From Aestuariivirga sp. (GTDB lineage: Bacteria > Pseudomonadota > Alphaproteobacteria > Rhizobiales > Aestuariivirgaceae): 64,000 nt of DNA. Positions 1,878 to 64,000 of this stretch are shown one piece after another; the first letter of the stretch is position 1, and every line of letters begins with the position of its first letter. The notes under the pieces are model-generated. The model did not search any database and had not been told where the DNA came from. It was given only the letters and a program-made list of their open reading frames with translations. The translations under genes and the position numbers were made by a program. Location: assembly GCF_020252395.1 (NCBI RefSeq), contig NZ_JADCDB010000009.1:1-64000 (forward strand), read 5' to 3'.

Positions 1878-2819
1878 CTAACGAATATCGCGGCCCCAAG
1901 TTTTCGATGCAGGCCTCGAGTCTGCCAACAGGTCGTCCACCGACCATGAATGGATGTGGCCCATCCCGCCGTTGCGGGACGGATCCATAATCAGGGCCAC
2001 GAGGGAATCGAGCGTTGGGTCAGAGAGGCTGATGGAACCAATCGCCCTCAGATGTTCACGCCAACGCTTGCTCTTTCCCAAGAACTGCAGCGCGCACGTC
2101 GTGGCGATGTGCTTTTGACCGTTTCTGGTCAGCGAAAGTCCGGCAAAATACTTGCCGTCCAGTATCGACATTGTCTGCAGGGTAAGAAAGCTCAGTTGCC
2201 TCGGCGGAAGCCGGTTGACGCCGACGAAATAGACCTCGGGACCGTTGGTCAAGACGATTCCGGTGTGCTTACCGCGGAAGTTCAGATGTCTTCCGCCATC
2301 ATTCATGGTGAAATACGTGCGCCTGCTGAAATACATCGTGCCGGCCCTCTCCTGTATGGAGACAAGAGATCGCTGGAGCGCCGTCGACGACTGGTGCAGC
2401 GGAAAGTAGCAGTAGTATAATCCGGTCGGAAGGACACCGACAGCTGTGCCTACGCTTCCGCCGCTGATGGCCTTCAGCCTTTCGCTCGCGAAGGCAGACA
2501 GCATATCTGTGCTGCCGATATACTCAGTATCCGAAAAGCGGGGAAGCGACTGCCGGGGCGAACCTCCCGCCGAAGCGGAACTCGACATCAGCTCCTCTTC
2601 GCTGACCCCGAGAACCTCACAAATCTTGCGAAGCGAGCGGGCGCTCGGGAGCATTTTGCCGGACAGGTATTTCCCGAATTGCTGACGGTTGATCCCCGTG
2701 TCTCTGCAAACCGACGATATGGAGGGAAAGCGGTTGCAGTGCTTCCTCAATTCCTTGGCAAACAACTCAGAACCCATGACATACTCACCACAACGAGTTG
2801 CATTTTTCATATATTTCAT
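1878..2819 (-). CDS. helix-turn-helix (XRE/Cro-CI) transcriptional regulator
   Basis: A 313-residue protein with an N-terminal XRE-type helix-turn-helix at about residues 17-78 (SVCRDTGINRQQFGKYLSGK, then LRKICEVLGVSEEEL). A long C-terminal region of about 230 residues has no obvious enzyme motif and may sense a ligand. The ATG at 2819 follows GAAGAAG at about 10 bases; an internal ATG at 2777 (MGSELFAKELRK) would remove 14 residues and leave the domain intact. A palindrome abuts the start (2820-2829), which suggests autoregulation. GC is lower than in the flanking genes, consistent with horizontal transfer. Confidence 0.85.
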   Translation of the reverse strand: MKYMKNATRCGEYVMGSELFAKELRKHCNRFPSISSVCRDTGINRQQFGKYLSGKMLPSARSLRKICEVLGVSEEELMSSSASAGGSPRQSLPRFSDTEYIGSTDMLSAFASERLKAISGGSVGTAVGVLPTGLYYCYFPLHQSSTALQRSLVSIQERAGTMYFSRRTYFTMNDGGRHLNFRGKHTGIVLTNGPEVYFVGVNRLPPRQLSFLTLQTMSILDGKYFAGLSLTRNGQKHIATTCALQFLGKSKRWREHLRAIGSISLSDPTLDSLVALIMDPSRNGGMGHIHSWSVDDLLADSRPASKTWGRDIR

Positions 2820-2829
2820 GTGTTAACAC
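2820..2829. promoter_or_regulatory. palindrome GTGTTAACAC next to the XRE gene start
   Basis: A perfect 10-bp palindrome lies immediately upstream of the ATG at 2819. Its position between the Shine-Dalgarno-like GAAGAAG and the start codon suits an autorepression operator for the XRE-type protein. This is inferred from position only. Confidence 0.4.
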
Positions 2830-3052
2830 TTCTTCGCAATGCAACGTTTGATCCTTAATGGATGGCGAGATCGTTAATAATTTCCCATTGTCCAGGGGTG
2901 TCCTTAATTGATTATTTGCCAATGCAATGCTTTGCAGCCGGCTCTGACGTCAAAGTTTGGTTAATCGGGGGTAACCGTCGCGTGGTTTGAGACAGACCGG
3001 TTCGTTGACCATGGAGACCCTGGCCGTTACGCGCGCCAGACGGTCCGCCGGC

Positions 3053-3934
3053 TCAGCGGGTGCGATCCAGGTTCTGGAACCGTGCAATCAGGCTCGAGGT
3101 GTCCCATCTGCCGCCGCCCAGCCTCTGTACTTCGGCGTAGAACTGGTCGACGAGGGCGGTGACGGGAAGCGGCGCACCGTTGCGGCGGGACTCGGCAAGG
3201 CAGATGCCAAGGTCCTTGCGCATCCAGTCGGCGGCGAAGCCGAAGTCGAACTTGCCGGCGATCATGGTCTTGTGACGGTTTTCCATCTGCCAGGAGCCTG
3301 CCGCACCCTTGGAGACCACCTCGATCACCTCCTCCATCGGCAGGCCTGCCTTCATGCCGAAGTTGATCGCCTCTGCAAGGCCCTGGACGAGACCTGCGAT
3401 GGCGATCTGGTTCACCATCTTGGCGAGTTGGCCCGAGCCCGGGGGGCCCAGCAGCTTGCACATACGCGAGAAATGCCCGATCAGCGGCTTTGCCCTTGCA
3501 TAATCTTCCGGGTCGCCGCCGCACATCACGGTGAGCACGCCATTCTCCGCGCCGGCCTGGCCTCCCGAGACGGGCGCATCTACGAAGCCCAAACCCCGGG
3601 CCTTGGCGGCGCCATGAAGCTCGCGCGCAACCAGGGCGGAGGCAGTCGTGTGATCGACGAAAACCGCGCCTCTCTTCATCGTGAGGAAGGCGCCCTCGGG
3701 GCCGGCCGTCACCTGGCGAAGGTCGTCGTCGTTGCCGACGCAGGCGAAGACCACGTCGGCGTCCTGTGCCGCCGCCGCGGGCGTGGCTGCGGCGGGACCC
3801 CTGAAGGCGTCCGACCATCTTCCGGCTTTGGACGCGGTCCGGTTATAGACGGTGACCTCCAGCCCGCCGCGTGTGACGAGATGCCCCGCCATCGGATAGC
3901 CCATCACGCCAAGACCGATCCACGCCACGCGCAT
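3053..3934 (-). CDS. NAD(P)-dependent beta-hydroxyacid dehydrogenase (3-hydroxyisobutyrate dehydrogenase family)
   Basis: A 293-residue member of the family that oxidises beta-hydroxyacids such as 3-hydroxyisobutyrate or tartronate semialdehyde to the semialdehyde or ketone. The N-terminal Rossmann motif is GLGVMGYPMAGHL. The family signature DAPVSGGQAGAENG lies near residue 120, and the catalytic lysine is in GSGQLAKMVNQI near residue 170. The start at 3934 is preferred over the upstream ATG at 4018 because GGGAGAGGTGC precedes it and the Rossmann fold begins at once (MRVAWIGLG). The exact substrate cannot be read from the sequence. Divergent from bpt. Confidence 0.9.
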   Translation of the reverse strand: MRVAWIGLGVMGYPMAGHLVTRGGLEVTVYNRTASKAGRWSDAFRGPAAATPAAAAQDADVVFACVGNDDDLRQVTAGPEGAFLTMKRGAVFVDHTTASALVARELHGAAKARGLGFVDAPVSGGQAGAENGVLTVMCGGDPEDYARAKPLIGHFSRMCKLLGPPGSGQLAKMVNQIAIAGLVQGLAEAINFGMKAGLPMEEVIEVVSKGAAGSWQMENRHKTMIAGKFDFGFAADWMRKDLGICLAESRRNGAPLPVTALVDQFYAEVQRLGGGRWDTSSLIARFQNLDRTR

Positions 3935-8665: not shown

Positions 8666-8750
8666 TGGTGCGGCCAAGAGGACTCGAACCTCCACGGTGT
8701 TACCCGCTAGCACCTCAAGCTAGTGCGTCTACCAATTCCGCCATGGCCGC
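8666..8750 (-). tRNA. tRNA-Leu (GAG)
   Basis: Read on the minus strand, the gene begins GCGGCCATGGCGGAATTGG and ends TTGGCCGCACCA, with CCA encoded. The acceptor stem GCGGCCA pairs with TGGCCGC. The anticodon arm is CTAGC-TTGAGGT-GCTAG, giving anticodon GAG (leucine, CUC/CUU). A long variable arm follows, as expected for class II tRNA-Leu, and the T-loop GTTCGAGTC is present. It stands alone between two plus-strand protein genes. Confidence 0.96.
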
Positions 8751-59009: not shown

Positions 59010-59141
59010 CAATCATTTACCCCCTTTCCAAGACGCCGTGTTTGCGCAAATATGGCGGCTAAGATGACGGCCCGTGGTCCGTCACTTCGCGTGGAACGCT
59101 CCACGAAAACAGAACGCCTAAATTCTATCAGGGAGACAGTA

Positions 59142-60257
59142 ATGAAGAAATTCCTCTTGACTGGCGTCGCCATTGGCTTTGCCGCAGCCCTCAGCGCCGG
59201 CTCGGCGCTGGCTGATATCACGGTCGCCACCGTGGGCCCGATCTCGGGCCAGCTCGCCGCTCTTGGCGAGCAGTACAGCCAGGGCGCCAAGAAGGCGGTC
59301 GCCGACATCAACGCGGCGGGCGGCGTCAACGGCGAGAAGCTGGTGCTCGAGATCGGCGACGACGCCTGCGATCCCAAGCAGGCGGTGAACGTCGCCAACC
59401 AGATGGCCTCCAAGGGCGTCAAGTTCGTCGCCGGCCACCTGTGCTCGGGCTCCTCGATCCCCTCTTCGAAGGTTTACGAGGAAGAGGGCATCCTGATGAT
59501 CACCCCGGCGTCCACCAACCCCAAGCTCACCGATGAGGGTGGCTGGAACGTGGCCCGCGTCTGCGGCCGCGACGACGCCCAAGGCAAGGTCGCCGGTGCC
59601 TACATCGCCAAGGCCTTCGCCGGCAAGAAGGTCGCCATCGTCGACGACAAGTCGGCCTACGGCAAGGGCCTCGCGGATGAAACCCGCAAGGCGCTGAACG
59701 CGGCTGGCCTCACCGAAGCGCTCAACGAGTCGATCAACGCCGGCGAGAAGGACTATTCCGCCCTGGTGTCGAAGCTCAAGGACGCCGGTGTCGATGCCGT
59801 CTACTTCGGCGGCTATCATCCGGAAGCCGGCCTCATCCTGAAGCAGATGGGCGAACAGGGCCTCAACGCCAAGATGTTCTCGGGCGACTCGATGAACAAC
59901 GTCGAGCTCTGGACGATCGCCGGCCCCGCCGCCCAGAACATGTTCTTCACCTTCGCGCCCGAGCCCCGCAACATTCCGGAAGCCAAGGCGATCGTCGATG
60001 AGTTCAAGAAGGCCGGCTACGATCCGGAAGGCTACACCCTCTACACCTATGCCGCCTTCCAAATGTACAAGCAGGCAGCCGAGGCGGTGAAGTCGAACGA
60101 CAACCAGAAGATTGCCGAGTGGCTGCGCGCCGGCAATCCGACCAAGACCGTGCTGGGCGACATCACCCTCGACAAGAAGGGCGACATCGTGAACCCGGTC
60201 TACGTCTGGTACAACTTCAAGGACGGCAACTACGCTGAAGTTCCTGACATGAAGTAA
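59142..60257 (+). CDS. livK: branched-chain amino-acid ABC transporter substrate-binding protein 1
   Basis: A 371-residue periplasmic binding protein. Signal peptide MKKFLLTGVAIGFAAALSAG, cleavage near SALA-DI. The Leu/Ile/Val-binding fold is plain: VATVGPISGQLAALGEQYSQG, the ligand-site HLCSGSSIPSSKVYEE, ITPASTNPKLTDEGGWNVAR, and GYTLYTYAAFQMYKQAAE. The start at 59142 has GGGAGA ahead. A strong intrinsic terminator (60310-60341) separates it from the paralogous gene that follows. Confidence 0.96.
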   Translation: MKKFLLTGVAIGFAAALSAGSALADITVATVGPISGQLAALGEQYSQGAKKAVADINAAGGVNGEKLVLEIGDDACDPKQAVNVANQMASKGVKFVAGHLCSGSSIPSSKVYEEEGILMITPASTNPKLTDEGGWNVARVCGRDDAQGKVAGAYIAKAFAGKKVAIVDDKSAYGKGLADETRKALNAAGLTEALNESINAGEKDYSALVSKLKDAGVDAVYFGGYHPEAGLILKQMGEQGLNAKMFSGDSMNNVELWTIAGPAAQNMFFTFAPEPRNIPEAKAIVDEFKKAGYDPEGYTLYTYAAFQMYKQAAEAVKSNDNQKIAEWLRAGNPTKTVLGDITLDKKGDIVNPVYVWYNFKDGNYAEVPDMK

Positions 60258-60309
60258 CCGGCTCTTGATCCGCGTGCCCGCCGCAAGGCTGGCGCGGGTG
60301 AGAGACATG

Positions 60310-60341
60310 AGACCCGCGCGCCCCGGTGCGCGGGTCTTTTC
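60310..60341 (+). terminator. intrinsic terminator after livK
   Basis: AGACCCGCGC (60310-60319) pairs perfectly with 60328-60337 around an 8-base loop, followed by a T-rich TTT. It would end the liv operon transcript, or reduce readthrough to the second binding-protein gene 48 bases on. Confidence 0.9.
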
Positions 60342-60388
60342 TTGCGCGCTGACGGTGAAAACCCGATACTCCGGTTAACCGAAGGACC

Positions 60389-61531
60389 ATGATGACCACA
60401 GCCCGTCTCACCCTCCTCCTGCTGCCCCTGCTGCTGAGCGCGCCTCCCGCCCTGGCCGATATCCTGATCGGCGCGGCGGCCCCGCTCTCCGGACCCTATG
60501 CAGGTTTGGGCGAGCAGCTGCGCCGCGGGGTGCAGGCGGCGGTCGAGGACCTCAACGCCACCGGCGGCATCAAGGGCGAGAAGCTCGCCGTGCAATTCGC
60601 AGATGACGGCTGCGATCCGCGCAAGGCGATCGACGCCGCCACCTCCTTCGTCTCGGCGGGCGTCAAGGCGGTGATCGGCCATTATTGCTCCGGCGCCTCA
60701 ATCCCGGCCTCCAAGGTCTACCAGAAGGCCGGCATCCTCCAGATCAGCCCGGCCTCGACCAACCCCAAATTCACCGACGAGGGCGGCTGGAACGTCATCC
60801 GCCTCGTGCCGCGCGACGATGCGCAGGCCGTGGCCGCCGCGGCCCTCGTCACGGACAGGTTCGCCGGACGGAAGTTGGCGGTGGTCAGCGACCAGACGGC
60901 GGCCTTCACGGCGCTTGCCAACCGGTTCACGGCAGCCCTGCAGCAGAGGGGCGTCACCCCTGCCCTGCAGCTCAGTTTCAAGGCCGGCGCCAAGGATTTC
61001 GGCTCGCTTGCCAAACAGGTGGCGGAGTCCGGCGCGGGCGTGGTCTATCTCGCGGGCTCCTATGTCGAGGGCGGCCTCATCGCCCAGGCGCTGCGCGCTG
61101 CGGGCTCCCAGGCCCAGATCGTGTCGGGCGACAGCCTCGTCACCGAGGACTATGGCAACCAGGCGAAGGACGCCGCCAACGGCACGCTGTCCACCTTCAC
61201 CTATGACGCCCGCAAGTTCCCCGCCGCCCAGGGCCTCGTCCAGCGCCTGCGTGCGGCAGACCAGAACCCGGAGGGCTTCACGCTCTATGCCTATGCCGCC
61301 GTCCAGGCGCTCGCTGCCGCGGTGGAGGCGACGGGCACGCTCGACAGCACCAGGCTTGCCGAATGGCTGCGCGGCGGCAACCGCTTCGACACGACGGTGG
61401 GCCCCGTCAGCTTCGACGCGCGGGGCGACCTTGCGAACCCCGCCATCGCGTGGTTCAAGTGGGTCGACGGCCGCTATGTCGAGGTCGATCCCAGAACCCT
61501 GCTGCCCCCCGTACTCGACACAACACCCTGA
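60389..61531 (+). CDS. branched-chain amino-acid ABC transporter substrate-binding protein 2
   Basis: A 380-residue periplasmic binding protein, paralogue of the one upstream. Signal peptide TTARLTLLLLPLLLSAPPALA, then GAAAPLSGPYAGLGEQLRRG, HYCSGASIPASKVYQKAG, SPASTNPKFTDEGGWNVIRL and EGFTLYAYAAVQALAAAVE. The two proteins align along their whole length with many substitutions, so the duplication is old or one copy was imported. Start at 60389 or 60392. It likely serves the same permease with different ligand choice. Confidence 0.94.
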   Translation: MMTTARLTLLLLPLLLSAPPALADILIGAAAPLSGPYAGLGEQLRRGVQAAVEDLNATGGIKGEKLAVQFADDGCDPRKAIDAATSFVSAGVKAVIGHYCSGASIPASKVYQKAGILQISPASTNPKFTDEGGWNVIRLVPRDDAQAVAAAALVTDRFAGRKLAVVSDQTAAFTALANRFTAALQQRGVTPALQLSFKAGAKDFGSLAKQVAESGAGVVYLAGSYVEGGLIAQALRAAGSQAQIVSGDSLVTEDYGNQAKDAANGTLSTFTYDARKFPAAQGLVQRLRAADQNPEGFTLYAYAAVQALAAAVEATGTLDSTRLAEWLRGGNRFDTTVGPVSFDARGDLANPAIAWFKWVDGRYVEVDPRTLLPPVLDTTP

Positions 61532-61543
61532 CCGGAGCCTCCC

Positions 61544-61783
61544 ATGCGTGCCTTCTTCGTCCAGATCAAATGCGAGCTCGGCAAGTCCTATGACGTGGCC
61601 ACCGCCATCGCCGATGCCGAAATCGCGTCGGAAATCTATTCCACGGCAGGGGGTTGGGACCTGTTGGTGAAGTTCTACCTGAAGGAGGATGAGGACGTCG
61701 GCCAGTTCGTCTCCCACCGCATCCAGACCATTCCCGGCATCCGCGACACCTATACCCTCATCACCTTCAAGGCCTTCAAATAA
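61544..61783 (+). CDS. stand-alone Lrp/AsnC ligand-binding (RAM) domain protein
   Basis: A 79-residue protein matching only the C-terminal RAM domain of Lrp/AsnC regulators: MRAFFVQIKCELGKSYDVATA, STAGGWDLLVKFYLKEDEDVG, HRIQTIPGIRDTYTLITFKAF. The DNA-binding half is absent. Such proteins can bind amino acids and may modulate partner Lrp proteins or transporters. It lies 12 bases after the second binding-protein gene, so amino-acid sensing for this operon is a reasonable guess. Confidence 0.9.
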   Translation: MRAFFVQIKCELGKSYDVATAIADAEIASEIYSTAGGWDLLVKFYLKEDEDVGQFVSHRIQTIPGIRDTYTLITFKAFK

Positions 61784-61828
61784 TCAACCCCAGCTTGACA
61801 TTTTGGGCGTTGTTGGCGTGAGTAGAGC

Positions 61829-63451
61829 ATGCCAGAAATCACTCCAATAAAGTTAGAAATTCCCTCCGTAGACCAAAATCCTGATGAGGTTCTGCTAAAT
61901 CCAGGCGACGTTGTTTTCGTCATGGGAGAAAACGGAGCTGGAAAATCTAGCCTTCTTCAAAGGATATTCGCGACGCATTGGCATTCTGCCCGCCGCATTT
62001 CCGCCCATCGACAGAATTGGCTTTACTCTAACCTATCTGCCTTATCTGCAGCAGACAGAAACAATGCGGGTCAAAACATAAATCATCACGACACAACTCC
62101 ACACTCCCGATGGAGAGACGATTATTCTACCCAACGACCGCAGATCACACTTTACGACCTAGTCGATGCGCAGAATGCTCGAGGTCGGGGAATCGCGGCC
62201 GCCGCAGATGCAGGAGATTTGAATGAAGTTCAGAGGTTGAGCAAGGAACGGGCACCACTAAGCACAATTAACCTGCTCATGCAGAAATCAAATCTCCCCA
62301 TTGAACTGAGTATAGGCAGTAGCGGCGAAGTACTCGCATCTAAGAATGGGTCCTATCCATATAGCGTTGCTGAATTGTCAGACGGTGAAAGGAATGCAGT
62401 ATTGATCTGCGCTGACGTCCTCACTGCGAAACATGGAACATTACTTCTTGTCGACGAACCAGAGAGACACCTTCACAGGTCGATCATTTCCCCTTTACTA
62501 ACCGCACTGTTCAACACGCGGCCGGACTGCACTTTTGTCGTATCCACTCACGATGTCACTCTGGCTATAGACAACCCAGATTCCAGGACGCTGCTACTGC
62601 AGTCATGTCAATACGCTCCCAACGGAATTGTAGCTTGGGACTATAAGCTATTTGGCCCTGAGCACGGGATCTCAGAAGAGACAAAGAAAGCTATTCTGGG
62701 AGCGCGAAGAAGACTCCTCTTTGTAGAGGGGCGCGAGAGAAGCCTTGATCTAAGTCTGTATCGCATCCTTTTCCCTAACATGACTATAGTGCCCAAGCAG
62801 AATTGCAGGGAAGTTATCCAGTCAGTTGTGGGTCTGCGTTCGTCCAAATCGCTCCATTGGCTTGAAGTATTCGGCCTAATTGATGGAGATCAGCGTACCC
62901 CGGTCGAAATCGAGGAACTAAGGAGCAAGGGTGTCTATACACTGCCACTCTATTCGATAGAATCTGTTTATTATCATCCAAAAATCTTCGAAGGTGTCGC
63001 AGAACGAAAATGCCAGATAACTGGTGACGACAAGGAGTTAGTCGTTGAAAACGGGAAAGCAGCAGCGATCGCGTCGCTGCGAAATCACCGGACCAGATTA
63101 TGTCACAAGGTGGTAAGTAGATCGATAACTCATAGGATATTCGCCTCGCTTCAAACCCAGGATGCCATAGAGAAGCGCGACGTCATCACCTTCAGAGTAG
63201 ATACAGGAGAGTTATTGAAACGCGAGGAGGAGCGGTTTGACCGGTTAATTGAAGAGAAGAACCTCGATGGCCTCCTTTCGATCTATCCACTGCGAGAAAC
63301 GCAGGCTCTGGGCTTGATGGCCGGAAGCTTGGGTCTTCGGCTATCAGAGTACGAGAAAGCTGTGCGTAAACTGCTGCTTGAAGATAGCCAGATTATTCAG
63401 TTTGCTAGGGGCATAGTCGAGCCATTACTCGAAGAGTTAGGTGAATGTTAA
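61829..63451 (+). CDS. AAA/ABC-type ATPase fused to TOPRIM-like (DUF4435) domain, possible defence protein
   Basis: A 540-residue protein. The N-terminal ABC-type ATPase has Walker A GENGAGKS (33-40), signature LSDGERN (183-189), Walker B LLLVDEP (205-211) and the H-loop STHD. From about residue 290 a TOPRIM-like DUF4435 region follows: LLFVEGRERSLDLSLYRILF (E300 of VEG), the QNCREVIQSVVGL segment and LIDGDQR (D352, D354), acidic residues expected for a nuclease. The C-terminal helices are Glu/Arg/Leu-rich. Such ATPase plus DUF4435 pairs form the PARIS anti-phage system. GC is clearly lower than neighbours, so it looks imported. Confidence 0.85.
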   Translation: MPEITPIKLEIPSVDQNPDEVLLNPGDVVFVMGENGAGKSSLLQRIFATHWHSARRISAHRQNWLYSNLSALSAADRNNAGQNINHHDTTPHSRWRDDYSTQRPQITLYDLVDAQNARGRGIAAAADAGDLNEVQRLSKERAPLSTINLLMQKSNLPIELSIGSSGEVLASKNGSYPYSVAELSDGERNAVLICADVLTAKHGTLLLVDEPERHLHRSIISPLLTALFNTRPDCTFVVSTHDVTLAIDNPDSRTLLLQSCQYAPNGIVAWDYKLFGPEHGISEETKKAILGARRRLLFVEGRERSLDLSLYRILFPNMTIVPKQNCREVIQSVVGLRSSKSLHWLEVFGLIDGDQRTPVEIEELRSKGVYTLPLYSIESVYYHPKIFEGVAERKCQITGDDKELVVENGKAAAIASLRNHRTRLCHKVVSRSITHRIFASLQTQDAIEKRDVITFRVDTGELLKREEERFDRLIEEKNLDGLLSIYPLRETQALGLMAGSLGLRLSEYEKAVRKLLLEDSQIIQFARGIVEPLLEELGEC

Positions 63452-64000
63452 AATTCTTTCGCAATCTGTGTCGACCAAGGGTTACAAACTACTACGCTGC
63501 TCTACTTCTCGCCCTCGGTTCTGCCCGCGCGCTGGCGGCAGACGGGGCGGCCTTCAATGCCATCGGCTATTCGCCTGACAGCCGCTACTTCGCCTTCGAG
63601 CAATATGGCGTGCAGGACGGCTCGGGCTTCCCCTACTGGGATGTCTTCGTCATCGACCTCAAGTCCAACGAATGGGTCAAGGGCTCACCCTATCGCGCCC
63701 TGATCGAGAGCGAGCAGGCGAGGCCCGCCGCCGCCCGCGACCAGGCCCATGCCGCCGCCGCACCCGCCCTCCAGGAACTCGCCATCACCGAGCCCGCCGA
63801 ACTGATCGCCGCCAATCCGGCGACCGAAGCCGTGCCGGAACGCGAGCGCCTGATCTTCGACCGCTGGTATGAAAGCCTCGGCGCCAGGTCTGGCCAGAAG
63901 AGCCAGCTCGGCGTCCGCTTCGAACTCTCCGTCGAGAAGATCCCTCTCTCCCGCCCGCCCAAATGCCCCGAGGGCGACGGCGAGAGTTACGGCGTCCGCG
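63445..64000 (+). CDS. DUF2259 domain secreted protein, 3' end beyond the window
   Basis: A frame open to the right edge (about 185 residues visible). From about residue 34 it reads GAAFNAIGYSPDSRYFAFEQYG, YWDVFVIDLKSNEWVKGSPY and IFDRWYESLGARSGQKSQLG, matching DUF2259, a predicted secreted protein of alphaproteobacteria. A signal peptide is plausible (YYAALLLALGSARALA). The first about 20 codons are AT-rich like the preceding ATPase gene, which overlaps the start by seven bases. This suggests that an insertion replaced the original 5' end. Partial. Confidence 0.8.
   Translation, partial: MLKFFRNLCRPRVTNYYAALLLALGSARALAADGAAFNAIGYSPDSRYFAFEQYGVQDGSGFPYWDVFVIDLKSNEWVKGSPYRALIESEQARPAAARDQAHAAAAPALQELAITEPAELIAANPATEAVPERERLIFDRWYESLGARSGQKSQLGVRFELSVEKIPLSRPPKCPEGDGESYGVR

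Follow-up and report, generated by a model that had tools for sequence, protein, structure and literature searches.

A single gene encoding an ATPase and a TOPRIM domain

The 64,000-nucleotide stretch of an Aestuariivirga sp. contig analyzed here (the window) contains an open reading frame that joins an ABC-type ATPase to a TOPRIM-like half, which raises the question of whether a PARIS defence system can reside in one polypeptide and how its nuclease would be switched on there. A first-pass annotation had proposed a PARIS-like ATPase-DUF4435 fusion. The gene, designated ariAB, is divided as follows.

61829-63451, + strand: ariAB, single-chain PARIS protein, 540 aa (open reading frame list, Pfam, PADLOC, profile comparison, alignment)
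61829-62563, + strand: OLD-type ABC ATPase half, residues 1-245 (AAA_21, hhalign to AriA, alignment)
62690-63031, + strand: TOPRIM domain (DUF4435) bearing ILGxR and VEGxxxSxD, motifs of the compact fusions (DUF4435 at residues 296-401, hhalign to stand-alone AriB)
63032-63448, + strand: C-terminal region, residues 402-540, with a conserved basic position, R489 (Pfam, PDB search, alignment)

The ATPase and TOPRIM-like motifs lie exactly where the first-pass annotation had placed them. The ATPase half carries Walker A (GENGAGKS, residues 33 to 40), the signature (LSDGER, 183 to 188), DEPE (209 to 212), and THD (240 to 242), all intact, including the Walker B glutamate and the switch histidine H241. 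The TOPRIM motif region begins about 50 residues past H241 and contains V299-E300-G301 and D352-G-D354, giving a catalytic set of E300, D352, D354, and E378. Pfam AAA_21 matches residues 124 to 245 (1.1e-13; 52.3 bits against a curated cut-off of 27), and DUF4435 matches residues 296 to 401 of the same chain (6.2e-09; 36.4 bits against a curated cut-off of 27), the latter over model positions 4 to 109 of 238 only. Among PADLOC families, the fused model AriAB PDLC02982 (570 positions) is by far the best (1.4e-67, 227 bits, best stretch residues 168 to 531), followed at a long distance by AriA (5e-14); the model of longer fusions, PDLC02981 (694 positions), gives only 1.6e-10. With both Pfam domains above their cut-offs and the AriAB match, the PARIS-like fusion that had been proposed is borne out at a level that chance would not produce.

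When the C-terminal half was scanned alone against 5,027 PADLOC models, AriAB (3.5e-38) and AriB (1.6e-07) were the sole matches at an E value of ≤1e-5, and no GajA or Old model was recognized at 1e-5. Residues 402 to 540 have no Pfam match. A PDB search with the C-terminal profile retrieved no AriB and no credible match (best E value 0.0077, to a 45-column stretch of the hypothetical protein TM0693); a stand-alone AriB used as the query likewise retrieved no AriB.

Conserved active sites and kinship to AriA and AriB

The motif residues of both halves recur in other single-chain proteins of similar size (compact fusions). All 33 aligned compact fusions have G33, N35, G36, G38, K39, S184, E187, H241, G291, E300, D307, D352, D354, and E378 in common; E210 and H216 are kept in 32 and D209 in 31 of them, and position 489 is K or R throughout. 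These 14 invariant positions come from 22 motif positions picked by the analyst, in an alignment in which many sequences were gathered by likeness to the window protein.

Profile-profile comparison (hhalign) related the fused C-terminal halves (n = 11) to stand-alone AriB (7 of 12) with 93.1% probability and an E value of 3.1e-07, over about 95 columns at 21% identity, and the fused ATPase halves (n = 13) to AriA (8 of 11) with 97.9% probability and an E value of 5.2e-13 over 124 columns. An HMM-HMM check of the C-terminal half had been suggested in the first-pass annotation, and this half gave no HMM hit to a non-TOPRIM family in place of AriB. In the alignment, E300, D352/D354, and E378 fall on the E, the DxD, and the following E of stand-alone AriB in the same order. 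E300 is probably the counterpart of E26 in E. coli AriB, whose E26A mutant shows no tRNA cleavage (PMC12409363); the B185 sequence lies outside the aligned set. The stand-alone AriB set comprises 12 proteins, 11 of them with an adjoining ATPase open reading frame; one came from a plasmid, and the others emerged when 289 class-level genomes (7 with a match) and 397 phylum-level genomes (24 with a match), the own genome included, were searched for DUF4435. L077, L096, and L097 are counted in this set though they score below the Pfam cut-off, and two weak matches (L078 and L079, below the cut-off) are left uncounted.

A PDB search with the whole-protein profile reached AriA chains 8ux9 and 8v45 at 3.5e-09 and 3.6e-09, respectively, with profile positions 124 to 248 aligned to AriA 304 to 432. 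The chains 9n69, 8j5q, 9e8z (retron Ec83), and 3ux8 (UvrA) ranked above them; because other ABC ATPases outrank AriA, the ATPase half by itself indicates an ABC ATPase and not PARIS in particular.

The window protein and two-gene PARIS (E. coli B185; AriA 8ux9, 8v45) thus share an ABC ATPase and a DUF4435 TOPRIM domain with an E, a DxD, and a further E in order. However, whereas two-gene PARIS has separate ariA and ariB genes and a long stretch from Walker A to the signature, the window protein is a single chain with no separable AriB, a shorter Walker A-signature region (151 residues), extra residues after VEG, and ILGxR before it.

Compact fusions as a class

The comparison covered 34 compact fusions with lengths of 518 to 601 aa. 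Their distance from Walker A to the signature is 139 to 168 residues in every case, as against 242 to 365 in all 11 two-gene AriA proteins. These ranges are not cleanly separated, because L057, a 482-aa protein (positions 2322-3770 of a Candidatus Brocadiaceae MAG contig), has a spacing of 198; it contains an EGxxxSxD-type motif, lacks ILGxR, and may connect compact fusions with AriA-type ATPases. Of the 34 compact fusions, 33 contain the motif EG-x(3-5)-S-x-D-x3-Y/F (in L086, G replaces S), and 33 contain an upstream ILGxR-type motif (R, Q, or P accepted; the exception is L090); both are absent from all 12 stand-alone AriB proteins and from L095 and L098. In the exceptional compact fusion L090 (628-2295), which sits on a very long branch, the link leading into the TOPRIM domain has diverged: ILGxR is missing, and TEG replaces VEG.

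In a TOPRIM tree of 46 rows, calculated without L046 (a near-copy of L045) and L090, the 32 compact fusions group together with support of 92/84, which is below the starred level, and there are long branches among the AriB rows; the single grouping is therefore suggestive rather than firm. Taken together with the compact motifs and the spacing, it makes the compact fusions look like one old lineage and not repeated recent joinings, in a collection biased toward likeness to the window protein, by which many of its rows were retrieved. Of 31 relative loci, L057 to L059 and L069 to L071 were not carried on. On re-inspection, L069 proved to be a compact fusion with a long N terminus (633 aa by the longest open reading frame, both motifs, spacing of 158, AriAB 325 bits), and L058, L059, L070, and L071 have neither motif.

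Longer fusions also place an ATPase and DUF4435 in one chain. They are represented here by L095 (692 aa, PDLC02981 at 364 bits), which has about 150 more residues and lacks the compact motifs. L098 (593 aa) was considered as another long AriAB fusion and rejected: its best match is AriA PDLC02979 (2.7e-33), followed by Old/GajA models, with no AriAB model at 1e-15, and the protein is OLD-like.

The first-pass annotation had taken the length of 540 residues as a possible sign of a minimal form or a distinct branch. Single-gene PARIS of about this size is already known: a fusion profile AAA_21+DUF4435 was built and such fusions were reported by Rousset et al. (2022), the compact length is modeled in PADLOC PDLC02982, and the label PARIS_II_merge is present in PMC12874462, making fused PARIS an existing annotation class. 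A minimal or shrunken PARIS was rejected on this ground and on the size range of the compact fusions, L069 included. The distinct branch survives in a narrower sense, as a supported sub-branch within the compact class and not as a class apart from known fusions.

In the full-length tree of 33 compact fusions (without L046, L095, and L098), the window protein falls into a sub-branch of 12 with support of 100/99. The window protein resembles the fusion type of PDLC02982 in length, domain order, and motifs, but its sub-branch differs at two sites. The residue after E378 is S, A, or G in all 12 members and N in 20 of the 21 others (L090 has A), and at position 489, 10 of the 12 carry R (L063 and L064 keep K), whereas all 21 others carry K. 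AriAB-model scores are 147 to 227 bits for the 12 sub-branch proteins; in the other branch, of which 8 of 21 were scanned, seven score 312 to 582 bits and L090 scores 166. The closest relative, L088, shares 48% identity over 530 residues and belongs to a genome of the same phylum but another class; L099 is 42% identical, and L040 and an Acidiphilium plasmid protein are each 39% identical to the window protein.

Insertion between two adjoining genes

The segment that carries ariAB and the genes that flank it are as follows.

61778-63510, no strand: inserted segment of about 1.73 kb, absent from relatives (flank alignment; right edge within 63494-63513, uncertain by about 20 bases)
61544-61783, + strand: left neighbour, Lrp/AsnC ligand-binding-domain protein (Pfam AsnC_trans_reg, 6.2e-14)
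63445-63999, + strand: right neighbour, DUF2259 secreted protein that continues beyond the window end (Pfam DUF2259, 7.1e-17)

The left flank matches relatives up to 61777, and the match resumes on the right at 63494 to 63513 in L012, L014, and L015, which give the longest matches, and slightly later in others. In seven aligned relative junctions, the Lrp-type gene ends in TGA and the DUF2259 ATG follows after 2 to 3 nt. In the window, the native stop of the left neighbour is replaced by insert sequence (TTC AAA TAA, compared with TTC TGA in the seven relatives), and insert sequence has likewise taken the place of the start and initial signal-peptide codons native to the right neighbour, whose listed open reading frame begins at an ATG at 63445 that overlaps the ariAB stop (ATGTTAA). 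The DUF2259 signal peptide (window 63445-63530) appears to have a new n-region partly derived from insert DNA.

The site is empty in all nine same-genus loci that have both neighbours (L011 to L016 and L019 to L021), with the two genes 36 to 56 nt apart by protein match. A total of 29 relative loci had been taken via the upstream binding-protein gene, of which 12 with an Lrp-like gene and no DUF2259 match and 8 with neither were uninformative. A search of 36 other genomes of the genus, not all of which are complete, found no full-length relative, G003 having a 27% match that spans 84 residues, and 4 of the 384 other genomes of the class sample have a match at an E value of ≤1e-20. Because relatives have empty sites, the segment is confirmed as imported, as the first-pass annotation had supposed, and ariAB was acquired by horizontal transfer; the empty sites and the absence from the 36 genomes led us to reject ariAB as a core gene. 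The lower GC noted at first is likewise real: GC is 47 to 49% inside the insert and mostly 58 to 70% outside, and ariAB has a GC of 48.4% and a GC3 of 47.9% compared with 56.7 to 69.5% and 82 to 88% for six neighbouring genes. Conservation at the same place with native composition in related core genomes, named beforehand as the finding that would speak against import, is thus not what the locus displays.

The gene had also been said to stand alone. It is the sole DUF4435 match in a whole-genome search, and the open reading frame list contains no other frame of ≥80 aa and no integrase-sized frame inside the insert. Repeats within 61500-63800 are short and weak, with no pair having one copy at each insert edge, and the only Rfam match at the gathering threshold is a tRNA at 8669-8750. 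Upstream of the left neighbour, the window holds two adjoining paralogous Peripla_BP_6 proteins (59139-61531, 45% identical) behind liv-type ABC transporter genes; in some relatives, three or four such binding-protein genes stand in a row.

Distribution of relatives

On plasmids, tblastn matched 51 of 72,556 records, 44 of them covering ≥80% of the query; 23 of the 51 are typed mobilizable and 21 conjugative. Among phages, 2 of 50,697 records matched, both entries of Oenococcus phage phi9805, with 44% of the query covered. A first search of genome contigs found no relative; a second found at least 10 loci (L052 to L056 used), and viral contigs yielded at least 10 (L062 to L068 used). Two IMG/VR relatives, L062 and L064, have a phage-integrase gene directly downstream, and a Kocuria copy adjoins genes for a TIR-domain protein and an N-6 DNA methylase.

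Compact AriAB also occurs on small plasmids (L045 and L046 among them), of which those in E. coli, at 5.3 kb, and in Salmonella, at 6.4 kb, have a Rop gene but little else annotated; the Salmonella one additionally has a ToxN/AbiQ-family toxin gene. In Paraburkholderia sabiae plasmid NZ_CP125297.1 (L051, 345-4620), AriA (PADLOC, 2e-27) and AriB (5.2e-23) are directly followed, in the same direction, by a compact AriAB (4e-175); this locus is a tandem of both PARIS forms.

Proposed mechanism and alternative explanations

Two-gene PARIS (PMC12409363, PMC9122126, PMC11455837) is explained by the release of AriB from the AriA hexamer and AriB dimerization upon a trigger. E. coli B185 AriB cuts tRNAs, tRNA-Lys(UUU) among them, between positions 40 and 41, and earlier data of the same authors favour activation of AriB by AriA over simple release, by a mechanism that awaits explanation (PMC12409363). 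We consider it probable that the window protein is a compact, horizontally acquired single-chain PARIS (AriAB) protein that provides abortive phage defence by ATPase-controlled cleavage of RNA, probably tRNA, with the nuclease activated in place. By analogy with the two-gene system, the ATPase half, probably oligomeric and ATP bound, would sense a phage-encoded protein (Ocr-like DNA mimics in the case of E. coli PARIS). The tethered nuclease would then be undocked locally and switched on in place, its TOPRIM domain pairing with another and acting as a two-metal RNase on tRNA, and the resulting stop of translation would abort the infection. The analogy underlies the proposed trigger, target, and outcome; activation without dissociation is suggested by the architecture, because with both halves in one chain and a link of about 50 residues the nuclease could not be released as free AriB and would have to be activated in place. 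Weighing against this explanation are the restriction of the AriB likeness to about 95 columns, the lack of an assignable counterpart for the last 140 residues, the nonspecificity of the ATPase half, the sub-branch change after E378, and the low AriAB scores of the sub-branch.

A more far-reaching version, which we hold only tentatively and regard as somewhat less likely than its negation, is that compact AriAB is a mechanistically separate PARIS that fires without dissociation by in-place TOPRIM pairing, and that the sub-branch of the window protein, altered around its active site, cuts RNAs other than tRNA-Lys(UUU); its grounds are the lack of a separable AriB and the shorter Walker A-signature region. 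No experimental study of fused AriAB was recognized by title or abstract opening, and two Nature 2024 structure papers may contain one. As natural single-chain forms cannot free the nuclease, one purified compact AriAB would show whether dissociation is needed, which makes ariAB a natural test of the PARIS "release" model; the branch markers after E378 and at position 489 offer a handle on a change of RNA target between branches.

The protein might instead cut DNA as an ATPase-TOPRIM oligomer, in the manner of class 1/2 OLD nucleases (P2 OLD, GajA), and have no tRNA step. These enzymes have the same order of ABC ATPase and TOPRIM in one chain with a short link, and the whole-protein profile also finds GajA PDB chains (6.3e-08, profile positions 165 to 302, mostly ATPase). 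PARIS is treated as part of the OLD family (PMC12839542, PMC12796447), compact fusions not being dealt with in the accessible portions of those papers, and fused AriAB may be a separate OLD class or unlike class 1, a matter that is not settled (PMC10568477). However, the exclusive AriAB and AriB matches of the C-terminal half, which no OLD or GajA model recognizes at 1e-5, render this unlikely. The frequency of relatives on mobilizable and conjugative plasmids, small enterobacterial ones included, would also suit a module serving mainly mobile-element maintenance or conflict, by addiction or plasmid-plasmid exclusion, rather than phage defence; but in E. coli PARIS, ariA or ariB can be deleted without toxicity, and phage defence is then lost (PMC9122126), and here ariAB sits by itself between two genes that are adjacent in other genomes of the genus, so that we rate such a role as quite improbable. 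Least credible of all is that the insertion is a decaying or silent passenger with no function in its present host. The promoter scan gave 3 promoter-like sites, compared with a mean of 1.6 after shuffling, but placed no sigma-70-like promoter before ariAB on the + strand, and the base composition is not ameliorated; yet all 540 codons are open, every catalytic residue is intact, and read-through transcription is possible because ariAB is codirectional with its neighbours and inserted where these sit 2 to 3 nt apart in relatives.

This genome offers no evident link to type I restriction: HSDR_N, a type I restriction subunit, has no match in it, and the "guard of restriction" logic known from E. 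coli PARIS therefore may not apply. N6_Mtase has one strong match on another contig and two weak ones; an N6_Mtase match of the same genome (G000:C9, 12069-12809) lies within a 1,088-aa open frame, a candidate single-chain restriction-modification enzyme.
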